A stretch of DNA of 64,000 bases. Source: Pelagibacteraceae bacterium (GTDB lineage Bacteria > Pseudomonadota > Alphaproteobacteria > HIMB59). Each line of letters starts with the position of its first letter. Positions within the stretch are counted from its first letter, which is position 1. Shown one piece after another: positions 1 to 14,289 of this stretch. The stretch lies in assembly GCA_019651435.1 (NCBI GenBank), contig BOYI01000002.1, forward strand, positions 1 through 64,000, given 5' to 3'. Under the pieces are notes generated by a model that was not told the DNA's origin, did no database searches, and saw only the letters and a program-made list of their open reading frames with translations. The position numbers and the translations under genes are program-made.

Positions 1-1500
1 AATTTAAATTTTTCATTTTTTAAAGTAAAAATTATAAGTATTAAAAAAGTATTATTCAAAACTATTAAAAATTTGAAAAAAAAAAAAATTATAAATCAAA
101 AATATTATTATAATTGAAAAGATATTTTTTAAAAAAAAAAATTTTAAATAAAGATTTTTAAAATTATTAGAAATTTGAAATATTAATTGATTAAAAACCA
201 CCATCAAATAAAAAAAAAATTAAAATAGCTGTGACATAAAAAAATGTATAAGCTCATATTTTTAAAAACCTTTGAAATAAAAAAAAAAGAAAATATTAAA
301 TAAATTAAATAAAATTTGAATAAAAATTAATTATACTTTGAAGGTTAATTATATATTTTTAAAAAAAATAAAAAATTTTTCCCCTTAATTATGGTGTATC
401 AATCATTTTATTAATTTTAATTCTCAAGATACTTTTTTGAATGTTTAGATTTTTTAATTTAACATCCTTCTTAAAAACTCAATTGTGAATTATTAGTTAT
501 AGATGCAAAACAAGATAATACAATTAATATTATAAAAAAAAGGGACTGGGTTGGAATTAGTTAATATTTTTATCAAAATGATCAAAAAGTTTCAATTTAG
601 GTGCAAAAAGAAAAAGGAAAATATTTTGAGTTGACTCAAGGTCTTTAATACCAAATTTTTAAACTCGAATGTCATTTTTTTTTTGAAAATAATAAAATTA
701 TTTCAATTTTGGGGGGGAAAATGCTTCCTTAAATAAGAACAAAATAAAAGCTTTATCAAAATATCATTTCTTTTAAATGCGGGTTTTAAAAGTCAGATGA
801 AGAAAGGATTTGAAATGTTTATTTGGGTTTTTTTTAGAGGGGGTTTTTAAACCTTAGGGATAGATGAGATATCTGGATTTAAATGAAAAAAGATTTAAAT
901 TACAGATTTTTTAAAAAAATTAAAAATAAGCTTTTTAAAATTTAAAAAAATACATACTTAACAGAAACTTTTTTAAAGATTTTTTTTGACGATGTATGGA
1001 ATGGGGCAGCTAGATCGGGTTTTTTTAAAAAAAATTTTTAAATTTAGGATTATTGCATTTTTAATTTTTTATTTAATGATTTTAATTATTATTTTATTTT
1101 CAATATTCATTAAAAATTTAGCTTAATTTATAATATTTGTCCAATATTTATTTTATTTATTTTTTTTTTAAAAGATCTTAAAAATACAATGTAGAAAAAA
1201 TTTTTTTCAAAAAAAAATTAAAATTTTTTTCTATAATAATTTGGGGATTTGTATTGGGTAAAAAGGGTTTTTTTTAGTTTTTTTTTCAAAAAAAAAATAA
1301 ACTAAATTAAATATCATTTTTTTTAAAAAATAGATTGACTAGGAAAAGCAAAATTTAAACCTATCTTTCTATTTTATTTTAAATTTTCATTCAAATCTTC
1401 CAATTTTCAAAAAAAATCCCATCATTTGTTGAAGTAAACAATAAATTAATATATCTATAGAGCTATCATTAATTTATCAAGTCTAACAAAGGCTTTGGTT
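1..1500. other. AT-rich low-quality stretch, no gene recognised
   Basis: I see no supportable gene here. The sequence is dominated by A and T runs, with sporadic G runs and short words that do not hold a reading frame on either strand. The style of error matches the damaged gene remnants just to the right, so coding sequence may once have been readable here, but nothing can be assigned. Confidence 0.6.
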
Positions 1501-1504
1501 TTTA

Positions 1505-2330
1505 TTAACAAAAAATTCTACTTTTATTTAAATAATTTGAAACAAAATCTGTAAATTCTTTATTTGTTAAAAGTTGAATATATTCTGCCAATAATCCAAT
1601 TAATTCTTCGATTTGTTCTTTTGTGTAATTAATATCGGGGCTTCTGCAAATATATAATTAGGAAAGGGAATTGGGGTAGAGTCAAACTTTCTAATTAATG
1701 TGAGCAAACTTATACTACCCTTCGTATGGCCCGGGAAAACCCAATCCCTCCCCAAAGAAATCTTTTTTTAAGCAAAAACATTATCCAGATATTAAATTTT
1801 AAATAAATTTAGGCCCAAGGGGAAAGCACACCAAAAAAACCCAGTCCTGCAATAACTGGTCCATTAATTCCCATACTTCCCAAAACAGCAACTATTCCTA
1901 AAAATATAATTAAATATTTTAGGATCTAACCAAAAATAAAGTTTTGGTTTAAAATTTTTCTAATTTTGAAAAAAAATTTGAAAATGGAATTAAAGCCTGA
2001 TGAATTAACCAAAAAAAAATATCGTAGCTAAAGTATTATTTATTTTCTGAAAATATAAACCCAGTGGAGCTGAATGCACAGAGTAAACAGCCAAAGTGCT
2101 TTTAAAATCATTGATAATAACTTAGTGTGGGATTAGGTTAAAACATCATCATCTACTTGTATAGTAGTCTTTACAATTTTTTTAATTTATGACAATAAGC
2201 TGGCAAAAATACTTATATAAAGGAAAACTATTGATATAAAAATTATACCTAAATCTAATAAACTTTATACCAAAACCTGAACATCATATCAACAAAGAAT
2301 ATTTGCATAAAAATTTGTTAGTAATTGCAT
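1505..2330 (-). pseudogene. Remnant of an unidentified membrane protein gene
   Basis: Read on the minus strand, separate short stretches look like real protein but lie in different frames. A hydrophobic segment near 1860-1920 reads LGSMGINGPVIAGLGFF, and another near 2040-2100 reads AVYSVHSAPLGLYF. A soluble acidic C-terminus near 1505-1640 includes TKEQIEELIGLLAEYIQLL and ends at a TAA at 1505-1507. The pattern suggests one multi-pass membrane protein with a short helical tail, broken by many indels. I do not recognise the family. The start is not visible; the right limit is approximate. The damage resembles the homopolymer errors elsewhere, so this may be an intact gene badly sequenced. Confidence 0.35.
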
Positions 2331-2346
2331 CGAGGTTTATTAAATT

Positions 2347-2374
2347 AAAAAAGCCACGCTAAGTTGGGCTTTTT
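2347..2374. terminator. Bidirectional-looking terminator after groEL
   Basis: An A-run followed by GCC, an 11-base loop and GGC followed by a T-run forms an A/T-flanked hairpin that works on either strand. It lies about 30 bases beyond the groEL stop at 2402, so it should end the groESL transcript. Confidence 0.6.
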
Positions 2375-2401
2375 AAATTTTAATTTTAATGAGTGTTATT
2401 A

Positions 2402-4050
2402 TTACATCATGCCTGGCATACCGCCGCCCATGCCACCCATTCCGCCCATATCAGGCATTGCTGGTGCAGACGACTTATCTTTCTGGCTTATCTGTAATCA
2501 TTGCTTCAGTTGTAAGTGGAACAAAGCAGCAGCAGATAACAGTGACTTATCGAAGCGGGTCTTTAATGACTTAGCTGGATCTACGTGATACCCGCTTTTA
2601 CTAAGTCACAGAACTTTCTCGATTGGGCATCGAAACCATAACAGAATGACTTGCTTTCAATGATTTACCCACCGCACCATCACGACCTCCGCATTTTTGT
2701 GTGATTTGCTTGAGAGGGGCAGAAAGAGCTTCTAACTATATCAACACCATATCTTTGATCATCGTTTTCAACTTTAAGTTTTGAAGAACATCAGTTGCGT
2801 ATAAAAGAGCAGTTCCACCACCAGTAGATCCTCTTCAACAGCAGCTCTTGTTGCATGCATAGCACTTCACACTGGCCCTTTTTCTTTTACTTAACTCTGT
2901 AGTTCACCTACTTTAATTACAGCAATACCAAATTCTGTGTTTACAGCAAGCCTTTCCTGTAATTTTCTCTGTCAGTCCAGTTGTTTTTCCAATTTGCTTT
3001 AATTTTGATTCACAACGTGCTTCTATTATCTTTTCTACCAGTATCACAACATGGTTGAGTTTTTCTTATTTAAATGTCAACCCTTGCGTTGTCAAGCATA
3101 TCCATTGTTATTGACTCAGCTTAATAATTAATTTTCAATGATCACTCAATTCACCAGTTAAAAATATTAATTCTACATTGCTTTTCGATCACTGAAACCG
3201 GTGAAGTTTTACTGCAGCAATTTTTAAACCGCCACGTAATTTATTAACTATTATGTCGCAAGAGCTTGCCTTCAATATCTTCTGATATAATAAGAAGGGT
3301 TTGGTTGATTGTACCACAGACCTAATAATGGTAGCAATTGGTTGTAGGCTAGATAGTTTTTCTCGCAAAAAGAATTAAACAGTCATCCATTTCAGCCTTC
3401 ATTTTATCAGCATTGGTAACAAAATAGCTTAAATATCCACGATCAAACATCATTCCTTCAACAACATCTAATTCAGTATCTAGGCTCTTTTGCTTCTTCA
3501 ACGGTAATTACGCTTCTTTGCCTACTTTTTTGCATTGCTTCAGAAATCATTCCACCAACTTCTGTATCACCATTAGAGGCAATAGAGTACCCACTTGTTG
3601 CACTTCATCAGATTTTACTGTTTTTGAATTCTTATGAAGCTCTTTGATGATTGCATCTGCTGCATTGTGTCCATACCTCTTTAAGATCCATGGGATTTTA
3701 ATCCAGCGCCGCAACAGCTTTCATACCTTCGGTAGCTATGTTTGGCATAATACAATGATGTTGTAGTACCATCACCTGCAAGGTCATTAGTTTTATTTGC
3801 AACTTCTTTGATCATCTGGGCGCCCATGTTTTCAAATTTATCTGCTAACTGATTTCTTTTGCAACGGTAACACCATCTTTTGTAGTTCTTGGAGAGCCAA
3901 AAGATTTATCGATAACAACGTTTCTTCCTTTTGGACCTAATGTAACTTTTGACAGCGTCTGCAAGTATGTTAATACCTTTAAGCATTTTAGCTCTGAGTG
4001 TCTGTTAAATTGAACTTAATTTGCTTGAGATTGAAATTTTCTTTCAACAT
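2402..4050 (-). CDS. groEL: 60 kDa chaperonin GroEL, frameshifted
   Basis: GroEL forms the ATP-driven double-ring folding chamber in the cytoplasm together with GroES. Although many indels break the frame, the minus strand carries stretches that are clearly Gro[19 protein letters not shown] near the N-terminus, [31 protein letters not shown] with the ATP-binding GDGTTT region, and the Gly-Met tail [14 protein letters not shown] just before the TAA at 2402-2404. The span of about 1.65 kb fits a full-length protein of about 545 residues. The exact start is blurred by errors: [10 protein letters not shown], typical of residues 4-13, is readable around 4010-4030, and an ATG at 4050 is the outermost candidate. 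It sits directly behind groES in one operon controlled by CIRCE. Confidence 0.93.
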
Positions 4051-4325
4051 TAATAATTCCCATGATGTCAGACTCCTTCATAAATCAGTTTTTACTTAAT
4101 AATTTTAACTTATACAATCACTTACCAAATAAAATTCTGTCAGCTCTTTTACAGTCTAAGGCAACTATTTGGCTGTTTTCATTTCTGGCACCACCACCCA
4201 CAGCAAGGACTTTCCTCCATAGGTTTTTTCTTGAGCTGTATCAGGGATAATAATACTGCCTTTTGTCTTATCTTCAGAATTGACTTTTCAACTAAGACTC
4301 GATCGTGTAAGGGTTTTAAATTCAT
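4045..4325 (-). CDS. groES: 10 kDa co-chaperonin GroES, frameshifted
   Basis: GroES is the heptameric lid of the GroEL chamber. The ATG at 4325 opens [14 protein letters not shown], the standard GroES N-terminus. Later fragments in shifted frames match the rest: [12 protein letters not shown] (the mobile-loop region), [17 protein letters not shown], and the C-terminal [11 protein letters not shown] at about 4050-4080. At least four indels interrupt the frame, several in A or G runs. The stop is not resolved, because the GroES tail and the GroEL start merge at 4045-4050. An AGAGG ribosome site precedes the ATG. Order groES-groEL and the upstream CIRCE are as expected for a heat-shock operon. 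Confidence 0.9.
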
Positions 4326-4350
4326 TTTGTACCTCTATATATTTTATCAA

Positions 4351-4377
4351 TTAGCACTCATTAACCTTAAGTGCTAA
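4351..4377 (-). promoter_or_regulatory. CIRCE operator (HrcA site) of groESL
   Basis: TTAGCACTC, nine bases, then AAGTGCTAA: this is the CIRCE inverted repeat with one mismatch in the right arm (A for G). It lies 26 bases upstream of the groES ATG on the minus strand. A TATATAC at 4383-4389 on the minus strand is a plausible -10 box. By family knowledge CIRCE binds the repressor HrcA and de-represses on heat; hrcA is not in this window. Confidence 0.92.
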
Positions 4378-4487
4378 AGCTTGTATATAAATAGTCATCT
4401 ATGCCCACTATGATTCAAGAGCTAAATAATAAAAATCATATTAAATATTGGACTTTTCATTAGAATAATTGATTATTCCTATTAGTT

Positions 4488-5056
4488 ATGGCGATAAACA
4501 AGCTCTCAACTGGGCAACAGACTATCTTTGCTCGAAAAAGGAAAATATGACTTGGATGAGTTATCACTAAATCTGGTGTATCAAAATCTATCCTATCTCA
4601 GATTGAAAGAGATTTGTCTAATCCTACTGTGACTACATCTCCAGAATAGCTGAGGCCTTGATGAAAAGCTATCAGATTTTTTTTAAAGATTGAAGTAGAA
4701 GAAACTAGCTCAATTGAAAGTTCAAAAGAGACTCCTTCATAACCTCTAAAGATGGTTTATGTGAGTTAAATATTTTAGGGCTGGGGAAACAGTTAACTGG
4801 CTTCAATGGTATATCTTAGAAATGAAACCAAAAGGAGTATTGAGATCTGGTCTCATGGTCCAAAAACTTTTGAAAATTTAACAGTGATTGATGGTCAAAT
4901 TGAGGTGAGTGTGGAGAAACAAAAGAAAAATTATCAAAAGGTGATACTTTTCGTTTTCAATCAAATCAGAGAACATATTTTAAAAATATCTCAAAACAAA
5001 AAACTCAAGTATTGATGATAAATTATATAGATCCAGTTAATGGATCATTCAATTAA
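4488..5056 (+). CDS. XRE-family regulator with cupin-like C-terminus, frameshifted
   Basis: The N-terminal third is a helix-turn-helix of the XRE/Cro class; LDELSLKSGVSKSILSQIE and NPTVTT are readable in pieces at about 4555-4640, broken by missing bases. The rest, GLGKQLTGF then IEVSVEKQKKNYQK, GDTFRFQSNQRTYFKN and a VLMINYIDPVNGSFN ending at 5056, fits the small beta-barrel (cupin-like) sensor domain common in this regulator type. Start chosen at the ATG at 4488; the first 20 residues are uncertain. It is divergent from groESL and ends 2 bases before the selD fusion, so it may control that gene, but this is inference from position. The ligand is unknown. Confidence 0.75.
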
Positions 5057-5058
5057 GT

Positions 5059-7258
5059 TTGCAACAAACTTATTTTAACAAACAATTAGTTTTGATTGGT
5101 GGTGGGCATGCAAATGTTCAAGTTTTAAGAAAGCTTTGTATGAATGAGTACCGGGGTCTCAATGTAATTTTAATTAGTGAAGGCTATGAGGCAATCTATT
5201 CGGGAATGACTCCAGGTTATATTAAAAAATTTTATTCACTTAAAGATATATCAATTGATTTACAAAGACTTTGCTTTAATGCGGGTGCAACTTTTATAAA
5301 AGATATAGTCATAAATCTAGATACTCAAAATCAAAAGGTTTATTTAAAAGATAATCCATCAGTTTCATTTGATATCCTGTCAATTAATTCAGGCTCAATA
5401 TCAAATAATCGAAATATTAATTTTAATAATGAATCAAAAGTTATACCTGTTAAACCTATCAGCTCCCTTGTATCAAACTTAAGTCTTATTGATAATTTGG
5501 TTAAAAAATCCTCTCAGAAAAAAGTAAGTATCGTTGGCGGTGGCGTAGCTGCTTTCGAGTTAAGTTTTGCATTATATAAAAGATATAATGGCAATATTTC
5601 TTTAAATATCATCTCATCACCGTTACTAGCAGAAAAAAATTTAAATATATCAACAATCAATAGACTTAAAAAAATAGCTAAAAATTTGGGTATTAATTTA
5701 ATTTCAAATAAAGTTATCACTATCAATAACTCAGAAATTGCTCTTGATAATGAGAATAAAATACAAAGCGACTGTGTTTTATTATCAACTGGGGTCATTA
5801 CCTGACTGGCTAGAAAAAGTGATTTAGAAAAGACAGAGAATTTCATTGCCGTTAATCATCAACTTCAATCTTTAAATCATAAAAATATATTTGTTACTGG
5901 TGATGCCGCTACAATTAAAAATTACAAAAGACCAAAATCTGGAGTAATGGCAGTTAGACAGGGAGAAGTGTTAAAAGAAAATCTATTTCTTTTTTTATTA
6001 AAAAAACCATTAAAAAAATTTAAACCTCAAAATAATTGGCTATATTTAATTGGAACTCATAAAAATTCAGCTGTCTTAAACTACTTTAATTTCAGCTTTA
6101 GTGGAAACTGGTGTTGGCAATTAAAGGAAATAATTGATTTAAATTTTATGAGAAAATTTTCTTTTTCAGAGCAAAATGACATGAATAAGAAAATTTATAA
6201 TCTAAATAATTTTAAAGATGATACTCCTAAAATGTATTGTCAGGGCTGTGGATCTAAAGTTTCTAAAAATACTTTAATCAATTTTCTATCTAATCAAAAC
6301 AATAACAAAGAGCTTTCAGACTCAACAGAAATCAAATTTGAGCAAAATGCTGTTCTTCAAACTATAGACCATATAAAGTTATTTAAATCAATTAATCCTT
6401 ATGACTTTGGAATCATTAGCTATTTGCATTCTCAAAATGATATTTTATCTGCTGGTGGCTCAGTGCATTCTCTAAGTGTTTCGATTGGAGTTCCGTTTAG
6501 TGAAAATTTAGTTGAGAGTTTTTATTTAGAATACTTTATGCGTGGAATTCAAATTGAAGCTTCTAAAGATGACGCTTATTTAGCAGCTGGTCATAGCTAC
6601 CAAACCGAAGAGCCAGCAGTTACTATTACTATGAATGGAAGTATAAAACAGAAATCAAAAAAATATTTAGCAAATGAAGGTAATTTAATCTACCTATCAA
6701 AACCCTTAGGGACTGGATATTTATTAGCAGCTTATTTTCAAAATTCTCAATTATTATCTATCTCTGATTTTGAAAAATTACTTAGATATCTAAAAACAAG
6801 TAATGACTCTGCTGCAAAATCAGGGTTTTCTTATGGATCTCAATTAATGACCGATATTAGTGGATTTGGATTAGCCTCTCATTTAGGAGATATTTGTCAA
6901 AGTTCAAATTTATCTGCTCAAATTAATCTTAAAAATGAAATTCTCATCAATAACAAATTAGAAATTTTGAAAAATTATGAAAGCAGTGGATATAAAAATA
7001 ATCATTTATCTTCTTTTGACTCAATAGACATTAAAGAAAATCATCCTTTAATAAAGATTATCTTTGACCCTCAAACTAATGGTCCCACTATTAATGGCTA
7101 TTGATAAAGAAAAGAAAAATGAATTTGAAGAGGATTTTAAAGAAAATTGCCTCTCACAACCATTGCTTATTGGAGAATTTATTAAACAAAAGAAAAACTT
7201 ATTTATTTCGAATAGCTATTTAAATTTTTTTCTAAAAAATCAAAATAAATATTACTAA
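5059..7258 (+). CDS. selD: NDH-like oxidoreductase fused to selenophosphate synthetase SelD
   Basis: SelD makes selenophosphate from selenide, ATP and water, the Se donor for selenocysteine and 2-selenouridine. The first half (about 1-380) is an FAD/NAD-dependent pyridine-nucleotide-disulfide oxidoreductase: GGGHANVQVL is the FAD-binding fold, VGGGVAAFE the second Rossmann fold, VTGDAA the C-terminal flavin motif. The SelD half begins at MYCQGCGSK (about residue 391); it keeps the essential Cys and Lys, with Ser instead of the second Cys, and later reads FDPQTNGP. Such fusions are known in cyanobacteria and marine proteobacteria. Frame breaks: GGGG for GGG near 5795 and AAAAA for AAAAAA near 5818 compensate each other and restore LPDWLEKSDL; another single-base break lies near 7085. 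The start is a TTG at 5059. selA, selB and a selenouridine synthase are not in the window. Confidence 0.9.
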
Positions 7259-7906
7259 TAGTATAATTATACTTATTGGAATTAAGTACTCTGGTTTAGC
7301 AATAAGTGCAAAACTTAAGATTTTGGTCATCAATAAAAATTTCTTCTAATCCCTGCCCTATACTTGCAAATATTAATGCCCATGGAGAAAGACCAATAAG
7401 AGTAGTAAAAAAAACTTTGAACTTTTAGCTCCAAGTCCTGCAAGAATTAAATTTTGAGCAAAAAAGGAATACCTGGAATAAGTCTTATTAAAAGCATTAG
7501 TTCTAATTCATTTTTTGAAGTATTGTTTTATAAATGAATATTTATGAAGTAATTTTTTTGATATGTAATCATGAAATAATAATTTAGCGAAATAAAAAAC
7601 AACAAAAGCTCCTATTGTACCACCAATAATGATGCCTATACCTCCAATCCAAGTTCCATATAAGAAACCACCAATTAAAGATAAAACTGAAGCAGCTGGG
7701 AAATTACAAACAATTAAGAAACAGTATGTGAATATGAAGATTAAAAACGAGATATAAAAATTGTTGGATATATAATTTTGAATTATCTCCAGATAAATAA
7801 ATAAAGTTTTAAGTTCAAAAAAATCTCTATTAAAAAAATAAATTACCCAAAATGAAAAAATAATTAATAAAAAAATCCCTAGAAATAATTTGTGTTTATT
7901 AATCAC
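7232..7906 (-). CDS. TVP38/TMEM64-family (SNARE-associated) membrane protein, frameshifted
   Basis: About 225 residues, mostly membrane segments. The N-terminal part (GTG at 7906) holds FPAASVLSLIGGFLYGTWIGG, split here into FPAASVLSLIGG and FLYGTWIGG, and GGTIGAFVVFYFAKLL, the typical core of the family. After a frameshift near 7500, LIRLIPGIPFF, the conserved proline motif, and LGAKSSKFF continue; then LSPWALIFASIGQG follows after another indel. The TAG at 7232-7234 lies inside the 3' end of the convergent selD, so the two genes overlap tail to tail. The GTG overlaps the ccdA stop (TAGTG), which suggests coupling. The molecular role of this family in bacteria is not settled; lipid scrambling has been proposed for relatives. 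Confidence 0.82.
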
Positions 7907-8635
7907 TAGATTAACAGCATTTCTAGTGAGGGAAGTATTGAGTTAAGTTGGAAACCAAGTGATTGGATAGTTCCATTTAATATTAAGATACCAGTTATCA
8001 ATAAAATTAAACCTGTCAAAATCTGAAAATGTCTTGAAAATTTGGCCAAATTTTTAGACAAAATTATTAATTTCCCCATCATTAAACCAACAATTAAAAA
8101 AGGAATGCCAAGACCAATGGAGTAAATAGTTAACAACAAAGTTCCATTGACGCTATCATTAATTGCTATGGCTAAAACTGATCCTAAAATAGGTCCAATG
8201 CAAGGACTCCATCCAAAAGCAAATGCCATGCCAATTAATAAAGGAAAAAATGAAAGATTTTGTAATTTATCAAAATTAAGTTTTCTTTCTAAATCCAAAA
8301 AAGGAATCTTTAAAATTCCTAAAAAAAATAAACCAAGAAAAATAATTAATACTCCTGAGAATATATTCATCTCTTTTTTTAAGTCATAAAAAAAAATCAC
8401 TTAAAAAATCTATTGATGCTCCCATGATGATAAACACGATAGAAAAACCAATAATGAATAAAATTATCAAAGGAAGTAGTTTAAGATTTTCTTTTTTAGA
8501 GCTATTTTGTATATCACTAAAGGATTTACCAACTATGTAAGATATAAAACCTGGAACAATAGGAAGAACGCAAGGAGATAAAAAACTAAAGACACCTGCT
8601 AAAAAAGCGATTGTAAAAGGAATTTCTTGGGTCAT
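7906..8635 (-). CDS. ccdA: CcdA/DsbD-type thiol-electron transport membrane protein, frameshifted
   Basis: CcdA-like proteins carry reducing equivalents from cytoplasmic thioredoxin across the membrane to periplasmic thiol proteins, for cytochrome c maturation or disulfide repair. Two Cys-Pro motifs in membrane segments are visible, SFLSPCVLPIVPG near residue 20 and FGWSPCIGPILG in the second half, matching the redox pair of the family. About six membrane helices, about 240 residues, as expected. A single frameshift near 8390, in a run of A, splits the gene; joining the frames gives a continuous protein. It overlaps the next gene by one base. No cytochrome c biogenesis genes are adjacent, so the partner is unknown. 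Confidence 0.88.
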
Positions 8636-8675
8636 TTTATTATTATAGTATATTACTCAAATATCTATAGCCCAG

Positions 8676-9278
8676 ATGTTTGATCGTCAAATCCAAAAAT
8701 ATACTCAAAAGCCTTTACAATACGTCGCCAAATTACTTTTAAAATTTATTTCTCCTAATAGCATGACCTTCATCGGTTTTAGTTTTGGAGTTTTGATGTG
8801 TGTTTCAATAATTATTGATCAATATTTAACAGCTATAATTTTTTTATTTTTGAATCGGCTCTCGGATGGGCTAGATGGTGTAATGGCTAGATTGCAAACT
8901 CCCACTCCTTTGGGAGGTTACCTAGATATTGTCTTAGACTTTTTAATTTATGGAGGTTTTGTTCTTTCCTTTGGTATCACTGAGCAAAATAATACTTTTT
9001 TATCAATGGTCTTATTATTTTGTTACATAGGAACAGGGAGTACTTTTTTAGCTAAGGCTGCGATACTGCCATCGTTAACTAATCAAAAATTAAATGAAGA
9101 AATACCTAAGAGCTTTCATTATGCTGTAGGATTAATTGAAGGGACTGAGACAATACTATTCATGTTTTTATGTCTTCTGTTTCCAAGTTTATTTACATAT
9201 TTAGCTTCAATATTTATTGTATTATGTCTAATAACTACAATTTTTAGAATTATTGTTTTTTATAAAGAACTTAATTAA
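8676..9278 (+). CDS. CDP-alcohol phosphatidyltransferase family protein
   Basis: Intact, 200 residues. The family motif DGLDGVMAR followed by LGGYLDIVLD (residues about 69-88) gives the D-G-x2-D-G-x2-A-R-x8-G-x3-D-x3-D catalytic signature that binds Mg and the CDP-alcohol. Five or six membrane helices fill the rest. It transfers a phosphatidyl group from a CDP-activated lipid or alcohol, or makes a related phosphodiester, in the inner membrane; the acceptor (glycerol phosphate, inositol, serine and so on) cannot be read from the sequence. It faces the minus-strand 128-aa membrane protein and overlaps its 3' end by 8 bases. Divergent from ccdA with 40 bases between. Confidence 0.88.
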   Translation: MFDRQIQKYTQKPLQYVAKLLLKFISPNSMTFIGFSFGVLMCVSIIIDQYLTAIIFLFLNRLSDGLDGVMARLQTPTPLGGYLDIVLDFLIYGGFVLSFGITEQNNTFLSMVLLFCYIGTGSTFLAKAAILPSLTNQKLNEEIPKSFHYAVGLIEGTETILFMFLCLLFPSLFTYLASIFIVLCLITTIFRIIVFYKELN

Positions 9279-9657
9279 TAAAAGCCAAATAGGCTTCCAT
9301 AAAGAGCTTAGCGATAGATAAAGTTATTAGAAAAAATACTAGTTTTAATACTATTCTTATAATCCTGCCAGGCTCTAAACCTGCATAGTAAGCTTCAAAT
9401 ATATTAAATCCATTAAAGAGATTATCGATAATTATTTTTTTGGATTTATGAAGTAAAAAAGCTAGTGGCTTACAAATTAAATGATAACCAAGAACAACAA
9501 ATATAATGACAATAATAAGACTAATGTTCATCATGAATGACCAAATTACTAAAGACAATATCCAGTAGCCCAAAAAACTCATTCTCTCAGCTTGGTCAGG
9601 TCTTGTAAAAAGTTGGAAGTAATTCAAGTTATTGAAATCCTTGTTCGGCAAGCTCAT
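9271..9657 (-). CDS. Hypothetical 128-aa membrane protein
   Basis: Intact frame with three hydrophobic segments at about residues 25-65 and 100-125, and a short polar N-terminus (PNKDFNNLNYFQLFTRP). The middle, HKSKKIIIDNLFNGFNIFEA, is cytoplasmic-looking by charge. I do not recognise a family. Its start lies inside the 3' end of the dehydrogenase gene upstream (29-base overlap), so it is probably translated from the same mRNA. No catalytic residues stand out. Confidence 0.7.
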   Translation of the reverse strand: MSLPNKDFNNLNYFQLFTRPDQAERMSFLGYWILSLVIWSFMMNISLIIVIIFVVLGYHLICKPLAFLLHKSKKIIIDNLFNGFNIFEAYYAGLEPGRIIRIVLKLVFFLITLSIAKLFMEAYLAFIN

Positions 9658-10663
9658 TTGAAGAGACTGTACTTAATTGGTTTTTATTTTTAGATAAAGA
9701 CAAAATATTCTTTAACTGATCCTTAATGCCTATTAGTTTTTTTTTTGCTTCTGGTTCATCATACTCCATGTCTTCTTTGATACTAGATCGAAGTGCAAGG
9801 ATTATTACTCCTCCTGCATTTACACAATAATCAGGGCAATAGGTAATACCCTTATTAAATAATTTTTGTTCAATGTCATTATCAGCTAATTGATTATTGG
9901 CAGCACCTAAAACACAATCTACTTTTACATTTTCACTGAAGTTTAAAAATTCTTGATTCAAATCTCCTCCTGTCGCACATGGAGAAAAGATATCAATTTG
10001 ATTAAAATTAGTGTCTTGATAATTTTCTAAATAAGCAAAACCATCATTTTCAATTAAATCTTTCTTTGATTTAAAATCTACAACCTCAACCATAGCTCCA
10101 GAATTTTTACAAAATTGAGCCAATCGAGCTCCTACTTTTCCATATCCTTTAATTAATATTTTTTTGTTTTCTAAAGTACTTTGTTGATTTTGAAATTCCT
10201 CATAGCCAATCATTGCATTAAAAACACCAAAAGCTGTGCTGAGACCTGAATCTGACCCTTTTGTGCTACAAACATATGGAGAGAGTTTTTTTAATTCAAT
10301 AAGATCCTCATCTATCATTCCAATATCTCCAGCTGTGATATAGGTACCATCTAAAGCTTTCAAAACTTGAGCAAATAATTCATAAAAATTATCTTTAGTG
10401 ATTTTTGCTTTTACTGTCGCTTTTCCTCCACCAAAATCTAAGTTTGCCAAAGAGTTCTTATAAGTCATAGCTTTAGATAGCTTTAAAACATCAGTTAACT
10501 GATCATCATGAGATTGATAAGCAAAGTATCTACAACCTCCTAAGGCAGGTCCTCTTTTAGTATTGTGGATAGCAGTAATTGAATGAAAGCCTATTAACTC
10601 ATCTTGAGCAAATAAAACTCTTTCATAATTATCATGTTTTAAATCTTTAAATATTAGAGTCAT
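9629..10663 (-). CDS. Leucine/valine/phenylalanine-type amino acid dehydrogenase
   Basis: Intact, 344 residues, cytoplasmic. NAD-dependent oxidative deamination of a branched or aromatic amino acid to the 2-oxo acid. The substrate lysine sits in FGGGKATV (about residue 80), the glycine-rich KGPALGG-like region reads TKRGPALGGCRYF near residue 37, and the NAD Rossmann motif is KGYGKVGARLAQF (about 170). VNAGGVI near residue 285 is also typical of the Leu/Phe/Val group, as opposed to glutamate dehydrogenase. The ATG at 10663 overlaps the end of mutT. Exact substrate preference cannot be assigned. Confidence 0.92.
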   Translation of the reverse strand: MTLIFKDLKHDNYERVLFAQDELIGFHSITAIHNTKRGPALGGCRYFAYQSHDDQLTDVLKLSKAMTYKNSLANLDFGGGKATVKAKITKDNFYELFAQVLKALDGTYITAGDIGMIDEDLIELKKLSPYVCSTKGSDSGLSTAFGVFNAMIGYEEFQNQQSTLENKKILIKGYGKVGARLAQFCKNSGAMVEVVDFKSKKDLIENDGFAYLENYQDTNFNQIDIFSPCATGGDLNQEFLNFSENVKVDCVLGAANNQLADNDIEQKLFNKGITYCPDYCVNAGGVIILALRSSIKEDMEYDEPEAKKKLIGIKDQLKNILSLSKNKNQLSTVSSNELAEQGFQ

Positions 10664-11071
10664 TATTTAATAATTTGTTAATTATTTTAAAATCACCTTC
10701 TAAGAAATCATAATCACTCAAATTTGAAATATCAATCCATTTCAATTGTTGATGAACTTTAGTCTGAATTTCTCCTCAAATTGAAAAATATTAAAAAAAA
10801 CAAGTTTCAATTTTTTGGATAGCTCCTTGTATTCATATAAATATTCATCGAAAAAAATCATTTCATTTATTTCAATATTCAATTCTTCTTTTAATTCTCT
10901 GTTTAAAGCCTCCTGGTTGTCTTCAAGATCTTTGACCTTTCCTCCTGGAAATTCCCATTTTAAGGGATGATCACCTTCTTCTTTTCTTTGACAAATAAGA
11001 ATTTTTTTATTTTGATAAATTAGTCCACCAACGACAACTTTAAGTTGATTATTTATTTTTGGCTCGAGCAA
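10647..11071 (-). CDS. mutT: MutT-type Nudix hydrolase, frameshifted near the C-terminus
   Basis: Probable 8-oxo-dGTP diphosphatase that cleans the nucleotide pool of oxidised dGTP. The Nudix box is GGKVKDLEDNQEAL then RELKEELNI, with Asn where Gly is usual. WEFPGGK precedes it, as in MutT. After residue about 100 the frame is lost at a run of A near 10772; the shifted frame continues as VHQQLKWIDISNLSDYDF, the normal MutT ending, to a stop at 10647-10649. The start is a TTG at 11071 inside the end of the upstream transporter gene. The reading suits a translationally coupled cluster. Confidence 0.88.
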
Positions 11072-11918
11072 TATAAATACCGATTAGAATAAGTATGCAT
11101 CCAAAAATTGAATTAAATTTAGTTTTCTTGAAAAAATAAATAACCAAGTATCGTAGCGGCTATAGGCTGTATTAATAATGTAAGAGATGATATTGATGCT
11201 GACAAATAAGCCAAGGCATAAGTGATAAAGGCTTGACCTAAAAATTGGCATATAAATGCTAATAAAAACAAAACAATAATTGAATTAATTGTCTGGGGAA
11301 TAAGTTGTTGTTCAAAAATTAAAGAAATAATAATCAAAATTATAGAAGTGATAATTCCAGAGATAAACATAATTGATGTAGTGTTATATTTTTTTCTTAA
11401 TTGACTAATAGTGATTATATAACTTCCATACCAAACAGCTGTCAAAACACCTAACAAATCTCCAAGAAATTGCTCTTTATTAAATTGGAAACTTTCACCA
11501 AGGAGAAGAGTCATGCCTCCTAGAGACAAACCTGCTGCAATATAGAAAAATTTTGTAAACTTTTCTTTTAGAAAAAATATGAAAATAAAATGACAACAAC
11601 TGGAGCTAAATTAGATAAAAAGTTGCTTTGGATACTGTTGTTAGTTTTATGGACCAGTGCCAACAAATCAAATCTAAAGCAAAAAATAATCCAGAGAAAA
11701 AAAAGACTAAATAATAAGTTTTTTACTTCAGGAAATTTTATTTTTTCAATTATTCCAAATGATGAAAAAAATAAAAAAAAAGGAAGGCTAAGGAAAATTC
11801 GATAAAAGGCAGTCATAATAGGATCAACATCAGAAAATCTTACAAAAATAGGAGAAAAAGCTATTGCCAGTGCTCCTAAAATAAGAACGAAAAATGGATT
11901 GATTTTATATTTAAGCAA
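11049..11918 (-). CDS. EamA/DMT-family transporter, frameshifted
   Basis: Ten-helix drug/metabolite transporter of about 285 residues. Two EamA halves are visible: ILGALAIAFSPIFVRFS at the N-terminus and QFLGQAFITYALAYLSASI in the second half; LAPVVVILFSYFFLKEKF spans a frameshift near 11575, and a second lies near 11690. The C-terminus GCILILIGIYIARAKNK runs into the mutT start. Start is a TTG at 11918 that overlaps the MFS gene by 8 bases. Substrate unknown; relatives export amino acids or purine-like metabolites. Confidence 0.87.
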
Positions 11919-13106
11919 AGACTTCTTCGGATTTTTCTTTTTCGACTATAGGAAAATGAATAACAGCAGAAAACAATGATATTATGATAGCCATGATCCA
12001 AGCTAAATCTAAAGATCCATAAATATCAATAACCAGACCTCCAACATAAGAACCAACAAAAGCTCCACACTGATGAGAAACCATCACTATACCAAAAGAG
12101 TTGATAAATATCTTGTTCCAAAACGATTAGCGACTATTCCAGATGTTGGTGGAACAGTAGAGAGCCAAAGCAATCCTATTAAACAACTAAAAGTAATTAT
12201 AATGAAATTATTCGTAGGTAGTGTCAAAAGTAAAAAAATTACGATACTTCTTGTAAAATAAATAAAGGATAAAACATATTTTTTTTTGACAATACCTGAA
12301 ACACGGCCAGATATTAGAGTGCCCATCATATTAAAGATACCAACCAAGGTTAAGCCAGTAGCCGCTATAGTGGTTTCTAGACCTTTTATATTAGCGAAGA
12401 CAGGAAGATAATTTGATATCAAAGCAACATGAAGACCACACACAAAAAAACCTAAGATTAAAAATTGATAACTTTTGTCTTTAAAGGCAGTTTTAATAAC
12501 ATCTGAAATCTTTCTAGGAGTGTAAACTTTTTTATTTTTATTTACTGGTTTTGGTATCAAAAAAATTAATGACATTGGAATAAATAATAAAAAGAAAACA
12601 GAGACTATTTGAAATGATACACTCCATTGAAAAGTAGAAACCAAAAACTGATGGATAGGTGTAAATATAAACATCCCAGTTGCAGCAAGTGACATCAATA
12701 TTCCTGTTACAGTGCTTCTAGTTTTGTCATCTTCAAAATATTTCGAGACACCACCAATGATAACTGGAACAGAAATAATGCCCGCTGACAAACCTCCTAT
12801 AACTCCTAAACCAAAAAGGAAATGGAGAGGGTTTATAGCAAATGAAGTAATATAAAAACTGAGCGAAATACCAATAAAACCTATTATCAAAGTTTTAACA
12901 TAACCTTTTTGTTCCGCAAAAGCTCCCGCAATGGGGGACATGCATCCCCATAATAAGTTGAAAATTCCGTAAGTTAATCCAATCATTGATGCTCCAAAAA
13001 TTGTGGAACTTAATAAATCTGGAACATAAATTCCTAATGACATTCGAAATCCATTTCCTACAGAGAGAATTAAACCTGCAACTAGAATGAGGAAGAATGA
13101 TTTCAT
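11911..13106 (-). CDS. MFS transporter, frameshifted near the C-terminus
   Basis: Major facilitator protein of about 400 residues with twelve hydrophobic segments. GNGFRMSLGIYVPDL in helix 1, GLSAGIISVPVIIGGVSKYF in helices 4-5 and ISNYLPVFANIKGLE in helix 7 resemble the oxalate/formate or monocarboxylate antiporter branch. A frameshift near 12090 separates the last two helices (VMVSHQCGAFVGSYVGG then a tail ending in KSEEVFA). Start chosen at the ATG at 13106 (MKSFFLILVAG); an in-frame TTG at 13133 is less likely. First gene of a minus-strand run with the DMT exporter, mutT and the dehydrogenase. The transported acid is not known. Confidence 0.85.
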
Positions 13107-13179
13107 TGGCTTAAAATATATTAAAGTAATCAAAAAAATATGTTTATTTTTTTAACCAAAATCACTATAGTGCCTCGCT

Positions 13180-13263
13180 ATGGGATATCCAAAAAAACAT
13201 CGTGGACGCAGAAAAATTGGTTCACGTAAACGTCGAGCTAAAAGAAGAGCTAAAAAGAAATAA
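13180..13263 (+). CDS. 27-aa highly basic microprotein, possibly ribosomal (bTHX-like)
   Basis: A clean 27-codon frame, too short for usual gene finders: begins MGYPKKHRGRRKIG and ends RAKRRAKKK, with 17 Lys/Arg/His and no acidic residue. Length, the MG start, a central R-x-K-I and the KKK end resemble bTHX ribosomal proteins, but basic composition makes chance similarity easy. TATAGT at 13166-13171 sits 8 bases before the ATG and is a good -10 box, which would give a leaderless or nearly leaderless mRNA; no Shine-Dalgarno is seen. It stands alone between the MFS gene and the TPR gene. Binding to RNA or DNA is the only function I would infer. Confidence 0.55.
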   Translation: MGYPKKHRGRRKIGSRKRRAKRRAKKK

Positions 13264-13295: not shown

Positions 13296-13790
13296 TTAAC
13301 CCGCTACCATTAACCTGTCAAAAGGATCTAGCTCAAGATACTCTTCGCTATCTTTACCAGCTATCCTAACCTATCTCGGCCTCTTCAAGCCTGTCAGTTT
13401 CAAAGTAAAGTTCGCCTAAATATTCTAAAGCACCAATATGATCCTCATTTAAGGATAATGCTTTTAAGTAATAGCCTTCGGCATTATCAAAGCTAGGGTT
13501 TTTCTGTTTTCTGGATGCAAAGCCCATATAATTATACAAATCAGCTTTTGTGTATCCAAAAGGTTTTTCACTTTCAATATTTTCAAGTATTTTCAAACCT
13601 TTTTCATATTCTTTTTTGTAAATTAGTTTTTTAGCTCGTTGATAAACTCAATTATTTACATCTGGAGAATTGGTCATTTGATGATGAATAACCTCCGTTA
13701 GATGAGGAATTACCACCGCTATCAGTGCCAGCAGAATAAGAAAGCGTATAAGATAAAGTAAAAATTAATGACAGTATCTTTTATATTCAC
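13296..13790 (-). CDS. Secreted TPR-repeat protein, frameshifted
   Basis: Reconstruction from a GTG at 13790 gives MNIKKILSLIFTLSYTLS as a signal peptide if one A is restored to an A run, then a Ser/Gly-rich linker (GGNSSSNGGYSSSNDQ), then tetratricopeptide repeats: YNYMGFASRKQKN, NAEGYYLKALSLNEDHIG and ALEYLGELYFETDRLEEAE. Further frame breaks lie near 13380, 13650 and 13780. The last residues DSEEYLELDPFDRLMVAG end at 13296. About 160 residues. Proteins of this layout are common in alphaproteobacteria and act as periplasmic scaffolds; partners are unknown. Confidence 0.72.
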
Positions 13791-13893: not shown

Positions 13894-14289
13894 ATGTCCA
13901 TAGAAAAACTAGAATTAACTGACTCAGAGTGGCAAGCACGTTTAAGTGATGAAGAATATTATATTTTAAGAAAAGAGGGAACCGAAAGACCAGGAACCAG
14001 TGTTCTCAATAATGAAAAAAGAAAAGGTATTTACCATTGTGTAGGATGTGAACAACCTCTGTTTAGTTCAGATATGAAGTTTGATAGTGGAACTGGTTGG
14101 CCATCATTTTTTGATTACCTTCCCAATGCTTTGGAGTTTAAAACTGACTTTAAACTTGTTATACCTCGAAAAGAGTATCACTGTTCACGATGCGGGGGAC
14201 ATCATGGGCACGTTTTTAAAGACGGACCAGAACCCACAGGACTACGATATTGTAATAACGGTTTAGTGCTAAACTTTATTCCGGATTAA
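13894..14289 (+). CDS. msrB: Peptide methionine-(R)-S-oxide reductase MsrB
   Basis: Intact, 131 residues, cytoplasmic repair enzyme that reduces methionine-R-sulfoxide in proteins. The zinc-binding pairs CVGC (about 49-52) and CSRC (about 98-101), the motif FDSGTGWPSFF and HHGHVF are all present. The catalytic Cys lies in LRYCNNG; the residues after it differ slightly from the common CINS. The start ATG at 13894 gives the normal length. Its stop overlaps that of the convergent bioY by two bases. Confidence 0.96.
   Translation: MSIEKLELTDSEWQARLSDEEYYILRKEGTERPGTSVLNNEKRKGIYHCVGCEQPLFSSDMKFDSGTGWPSFFDYLPNALEFKTDFKLVIPRKEYHCSRCGGHHGHVFKDGPEPTGLRYCNNGLVLNFIPD

Follow-up and report, generated by a model that had tools for sequence, protein, structure and literature searches.

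A gene for a basic microprotein

We analyzed a stretch of 64,000 nucleotides (hereafter the window) from the genome of an alphaproteobacterium of the HIMB59 genus. It contains a short open reading frame for a microprotein of 27 residues, MGYPKKHRGRRKIGSRKRRAKRRAKKK (Table 1). Eight lysines, eight arginines and one histidine make 17 of these residues basic, and neither aspartate nor glutamate occurs. A preliminary description of this DNA had noticed the same clean, basic frame without acidic residues. The gene stands alone: on one side it is flanked by a divergent MFS-family gene, on the other by a TPR-type frame, which is followed by a gene of the SelR/MsrB family. No tRNA was found in the window by ARAGORN, and no Rfam match in it reached the gathering threshold. 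The TPR gene is a single frame of 146 amino acids in genome G030 (locus L028, 5137-5577); in the window (13366-13740, minus strand) only a fragment of 76 amino acids is present and the gene seems to be interrupted.

Table 1. Features at the microprotein locus (positions in the window).
Feature	Position	Strand	Remarks
MFS-family gene, divergent	12087-13133	-	
A-tract and TATGTTTATTTTT block, upstream promoter half	13132-13151	+	conserved in genus
-10 hexamer TATAGT, 8 nt before ATG	13166-13171	+	TATAnT/TATTAT exactly 8 nt before ATG in 20/21 distinct genus upstreams
GC-rich GCCTCGCT between -10 element and ATG	13172-13179	+	leader about 0-3 nt, inferred from sequence
Microprotein CDS MGYPKKHRGRRKIGSRKRRAKRRAKKK	13180-13263 (including TAA)	+	conserved frame, synonymous variation
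TPR-type frame	13366-13596	-	
SelR/MsrB-family gene	13894-14289	+	

Conservation and selection

A profile search (match: E up to 1) in a group sample of 60 genomes, the source genome included, detected the microprotein or a near copy in 50 of them. Within the genus, 29 of 37 genomes matched, again including the source (28 with an identical peptide, one at 96% identity). The sister family f2 followed with 21 of 23 genomes and peptides that are 78-81% identical. All 17 genomes of the genus and f2 with a completeness of at least 90% gave a match. Six of the 10 group genomes without a match were searched again by pattern, and no true copy was found in them.

For the analysis of selection, 159 bacterial locus records were available, some of which describe one and the same place, and these were reduced to 122 distinct coding sequences. 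The exact peptide of the window is encoded by 18 distinct coding sequences, which vary at 6 first, 0 second and 22 third codon positions. Across all 122 sequences, codons 3-15 show variation at 5 first and 2 second positions, and at all 13 third positions. This shows that purifying selection acts on the microprotein. Since the frame is kept in relatives, variation concentrates on third codon positions and the promoter is conserved, the frame is more than a chance occurrence and represents a real gene, as the preliminary description had assumed. A lack of conservation in related genomes, named there as the finding that would speak against the frame, was not observed.

Promoter and translation start

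The TATAGT hexamer, which had also been pointed out before, lies at the position described and is kept in the genus at the same distance from the start codon (Table 1). A Shine-Dalgarno (SD)-like site is found neither before the ATG in the window nor in any of the 21 distinct upstream regions of the genus, which confirms the earlier observation of a missing ribosome site. Because of the -10 element at 8 nt and the lack of an SD-like site, the microprotein mRNA is probably leaderless or nearly so in this genus. The earlier suggestion of a leaderless mRNA is therefore supported, with a transcription start that is deduced from the position of the promoter.

In f2, SD-like sites are likewise absent (0 of 11 upstream regions); inspection by eye revealed a TTGACTT element and, about 11-14 nt ahead of the ATG, a TATA element. 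In f25 none of four upstream regions has an SD-like site, and a TATAnT-type element is mostly located 22-23 nt away. SD-like sites occur in 71 of 77 upstream regions of f99 (2 in the control stretch) and in all four from the phylum of the Gemmatimonadales (control: 1).

A scan of 391 starts in 464 kb of the genus, consisting of the window and 400 kb of genome G030 (L256-L275), gave a peak of TATAnT-type elements 6 nt before the first ATG, with 9 starts, the mean at other distances from 2 to 39 nt being about 2.7 starts. At 8 nt, the distance of the microprotein gene, 4 starts were counted, which is no clear excess. SD-like sites precede 88 of the 391 starts compared to 30 in the control stretch. 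The peak at 6 nt and the small number of starts with SD-like sites make it likely that leaderless genes form a class in the HIMB59 genus. The microprotein gene would fit into this class with a leader of about 2 nt. The string AAAATATGTTTATTTTT was found once in the 464 kb scanned.

Distribution among bacteria

The class-wide sample comprised 385 genomes and gave 13 strong matches, which belong to the four families f1, f2, f25 and f99. The weak matches of this search (E 0.0018 to 1), few of which were inspected, were judged to be chance. The order of f99 was searched separately: 35 of 38 f99 genomes match, and none of 40 genomes of the sister family f174 carries the microprotein. It is also absent, by pattern as well, from the f99 genomes G734, G739 and G783, which are 97-99% complete. 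In view of f174 and these three near-complete genomes, the microprotein is not indispensable everywhere and the gene can be lost or replaced. A phylum-wide sample of 269 genomes from the phylum of the window yielded the source genome only.

A scan of GTDB contigs gave at least 238 confirmed places. Of these, 80 were kept, most of them named Pelagibacteraceae, and from these names we take f99 to be the Pelagibacteraceae. The peptide of one kept locus, L065 (HIMB59 MED-G104), equals that of G026, which belongs to the same genus as the window. Another locus (L117) lies in a metagenome-assembled genome of the Gemmatimonadales with a GC content of 64% and encodes a version of 33 residues preceded by an SD-like site. 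In the corresponding phylum 6 of 279 genomes matched. Five of these matches are real (G440, G457, G575, G632 and G643), and the sixth (G682) was judged to be chance. All five keep the motif YPKKHRGRRK-x-GS, and the microprotein thus crosses phyla. The core string was not fixed in the profile searches of the group, the class, the order of f99 and the Gemmatimonadales phylum; the pattern of the GTDB and IMG/VR scans itself contains YPKKHRG(R), so that invariance among those hits is partly given by construction.

Across the bacterial families no conserved neighbors were seen, where genes beyond the window were judged by eye, and in 157 of the 159 bacterial locus records a search within 1.5 kb showed no tRNA.

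Copies on viral contigs

The scan of IMG/VR matched 47 stretches, from which the gene was confirmed on 24 uncultivated viral contigs with peptides of 28-40 residues. A further scan, whose pattern did not contain YPKK, matched 94 stretches; 5 were confirmed, and each of these lies on a contig already found. With tblastn, neither the plasmids of PLSDB nor the phages of INPHARED gave a match, a weak negative because the low-complexity filter of BLAST may mask such basic queries.

Representatives of each group of viral contigs were annotated. In group B (12 contigs) the gene is part of a capsid module, with genes for a holin, GroES and a virion protein on L214 and for terminase, portal and major head protein on L249. 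A neighbor gene in this group is related to genes of the Pelagibacter phages HTVC023P and HTVC027P (40-56% identity). Groups A (6 contigs) and C (3 contigs) have it in a replication-type module. The genes nearby code for a DnaA-C-domain protein, an HNH protein and an integrase on L212, and for an exonuclease, a DNA methyltransferase and a partial terminase on L208/L236. On L201, a contig apart from groups A to C, the genes nearby code for a DNA polymerase, a thymidylate synthase and a 2OG oxygenase. In residues 1-25 the peptides of group C are identical to the peptide of the f2 hosts, which suggests host-matched copies.

In two contigs, L228 (IMG/VR 3300005253_000596, 1-10664) and L238 (3300037483_000361, 1-12738), the microprotein gene lies inside a tRNA/tmRNA array, with 13 tRNAs and a tmRNA in 18.7 kb and 26 tRNAs and a tmRNA in 20 kb, respectively. 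On L238 it follows tRNA-Ser(GGA) at a distance of 18 nt; the array there also contains a gene with an RF-1 domain and an RNA ligase. Both contigs are related by gene order and represent one phage lineage. Among the remaining 22 viral contigs, 21 have no tRNA in the examined stretches and one has a single tRNA.

The capsid modules of HTVC023P, HTVC027P and 023Pt_psg01 (L251-L253) contain several other small basic frames before GroES. The peptide itself was not among the small basic frames in the examined stretches of these three phages, EXVC032P Baldr and DSL-LC04.

Such neighborhoods would fit a peptide that binds DNA for compaction or packaging, both in the cell and in the virion. The high basicity of the peptide, the position of the group B copies beside terminase, portal, major head protein and GroES, and the other small basic frames of related phages at this place are in line with it. 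However, generic compaction does not need a fixed core with Y, P, H, G and S, and the copies of groups A and C are found in replication modules and those of one lineage in the tRNA array. We therefore consider this function improbable.

Arginine-rich peptides that each bind a single RNA hairpin are known from phages. A regulatory RNA-binding peptide of this kind, e.g., an antiterminator or a riboregulator that phages and hosts exchange, would account for the occurrence in both, but hardly for a standalone gene that is near-identical across the genus and has no conserved neighboring target. Moreover, Rfam revealed no RNA element in the window. This role is very unlikely.

Relation to known protein families

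Fifteen members of the family gave no match in Pfam and NCBIfam at E up to 10, three members gave none in PHROGs, and a search of PDB sequences with the peptide and two profiles returned 0 matches at E up to 10. Neither the core string YPKKHRG nor any description of the peptide was found in the literature searched. The family is thus not represented in Pfam, NCBIfam, PHROGs and PDB sequences as searched.

The preliminary description had proposed bTHX of the small ribosomal subunit, since the microprotein is as long as Thermus bTHX (27 amino acids), begins with MG and ends with KKK. None of the 15 members matched the Thx models PF17070, TIGR04560 and NF011339 at E up to 10, whereas Thermus bTHX, the positive control, passed the cut-offs of all three. 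For six peptides aligned to bTHX, 173-777 of 1000 shuffled sequences scored as high, and the MGKGD start of bTHX is missing. In addition, the genomes G440 and G457 have, besides the microprotein, a Thx that passes the Pfam cut-off and is encoded elsewhere; in the 21 alphaproteobacterial carriers scanned no Thx above the cut-off was found. The proposal was rejected because of the silent models, the shuffle-level scores and the coexisting Thx. It appears largely refuted and would now be extremely surprising.

A special case of a ribosomal function would be a bS22 that has diverged strongly. bS22 is the peptide in the h2/h27/h44/h45 pocket of the small subunit, a relative of mS38 and an analog of eL41. 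Size, basicity and the standalone gene are similar, the predicted helix would agree, and no competing bS22 was seen, with COX24_C above cut-off in 0 of 23 carriers. The last point says little, as 0 of 372 sampled alphaproteobacteria pass this cut-off. Similarly, none of the 15 members matches PF08213 or NF047430, but this silence is weak evidence, since the solved bS22 of Borrelia and Bacteroidetes also fail both cut-offs. In alignments of six peptides with five solved bS22, 141-696 of 1000 shuffles score as high. Profile-profile comparison by hhalign produced uninformative one-column alignments, for which 155 and 135 of 200 shuffles score as high. The most conserved part of the microprotein, YPKKHRGRRK, has no counterpart in bS22. 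Homology to bS22 is possible but not demonstrable by these comparisons, and we regard it as rather unlikely.

Proposed function in translation

On balance, the microprotein probably binds RNA as a constitutive part of the translation machinery; a small ribosomal protein missed by annotation is most likely. An invariant, non-repetitive core, in which Y, P, H, G and S stand among basic residues, is found in unrelated genomes. In the predicted structure (mean pLDDT 79.9, pTM 0.38), residues 1-12 are mostly non-helical and residues 13-32 form a helix. An invariant core with a looser basic tail that is predicted to be helical would be expected for a peptide in one RNA pocket. This character, the tRNA array of the phage lineage and the precedent of phage-encoded bS21 and bL12, which enter E. 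coli ribosomes (PMC6375957), together argue for ribosome binding. They also favor the earlier, more general view of a nucleic-acid-binding, possibly ribosomal protein.

Several observations speak against a ribosomal protein. The contigs with tRNA arrays belong to a single lineage, nearly all other viral contigs show no tRNA, and the other viral groups examined have capsid or replication neighbors. Since the bacterial neighborhoods also differ and nearly all lack tRNAs, the link to translation comes from this lineage, the character of the peptide and the precedent. Similarity to known ribosomal proteins does not exceed that expected from composition, and the gene is absent from f174 and three near-complete Pelagibacteraceae.

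If the microprotein is ribosomal, an extended arm formed by its first 15 residues (MGYPKKHRGRRK-x-GS) could be threaded into one specific pocket of the rRNA, and the C-terminal part, which is basic and looser, could lie along the RNA as a helix. In HIMB59, its own promoter would give rise to the leaderless or nearly leaderless mRNA. Some phages might load their own copy onto the ribosomes of the host, in the way known from phage bS21, possibly to their benefit. Tentatively, one may go further and see in it a new ribosomal protein family of abundant surface-ocean bacteria, unrelated to bS22 and bTHX and traded between phyla and phages, with phages inserting their own version into host ribosomes along with their own tRNAs, tmRNA and a release-factor-like protein.

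SAR11 bacteria have been called the most abundant microorganisms of the sea (PMC10308909). If ribosomal, the microprotein would be a part of the SAR11 and HIMB59 translation machinery that has so far been unseen. By our reasoning, ordinary proteomics could hardly detect it, because it is very short and trypsin yields pieces of at most 5 residues. With the phage copies, which in one lineage lie within a tRNA/tmRNA array, the idea that marine phages take over ribosomes can be tested directly. As the gene is common to HIMB59 and Pelagibacteraceae, not to f174, it also provides a character for the disputed kinship of these groups; this sharing may reflect phage-borne transfer instead of kinship.

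Comparison with known systems

bTHX (PF17070, TIGR04560), a small-subunit peptide of the 30S head, has the length and basicity of the microprotein, which differs in matching no bTHX model, in its start and in occurring alongside a true bTHX in two genomes. With bS22 (Mycobacterium, Cutibacterium, Flavobacterium, Borrelia; mS38/COX24_C) it has in common about 30 highly basic residues, a standalone gene and, in the sequences compared, the lack of acidic residues. In contrast, the similarity of the two is not above composition, and bS22 lacks the YPKKHRGRRK core. Borrelia bS22 is described as having been unannotated until a structure showed it, and as the sole ribosomal protein missed by mass spectrometry (PMC10618245). 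The phage-encoded bS21 and bL12 are other proteins; like them, the microprotein is a small host protein with phage copies, here on 24 IMG/VR contigs. The viruses encoding bS21 are described as mostly aquatic (PMC6375957), and by analogy to phage bS21 and bL12 the viral copies of the microprotein may likewise enter the ribosomes of their hosts.
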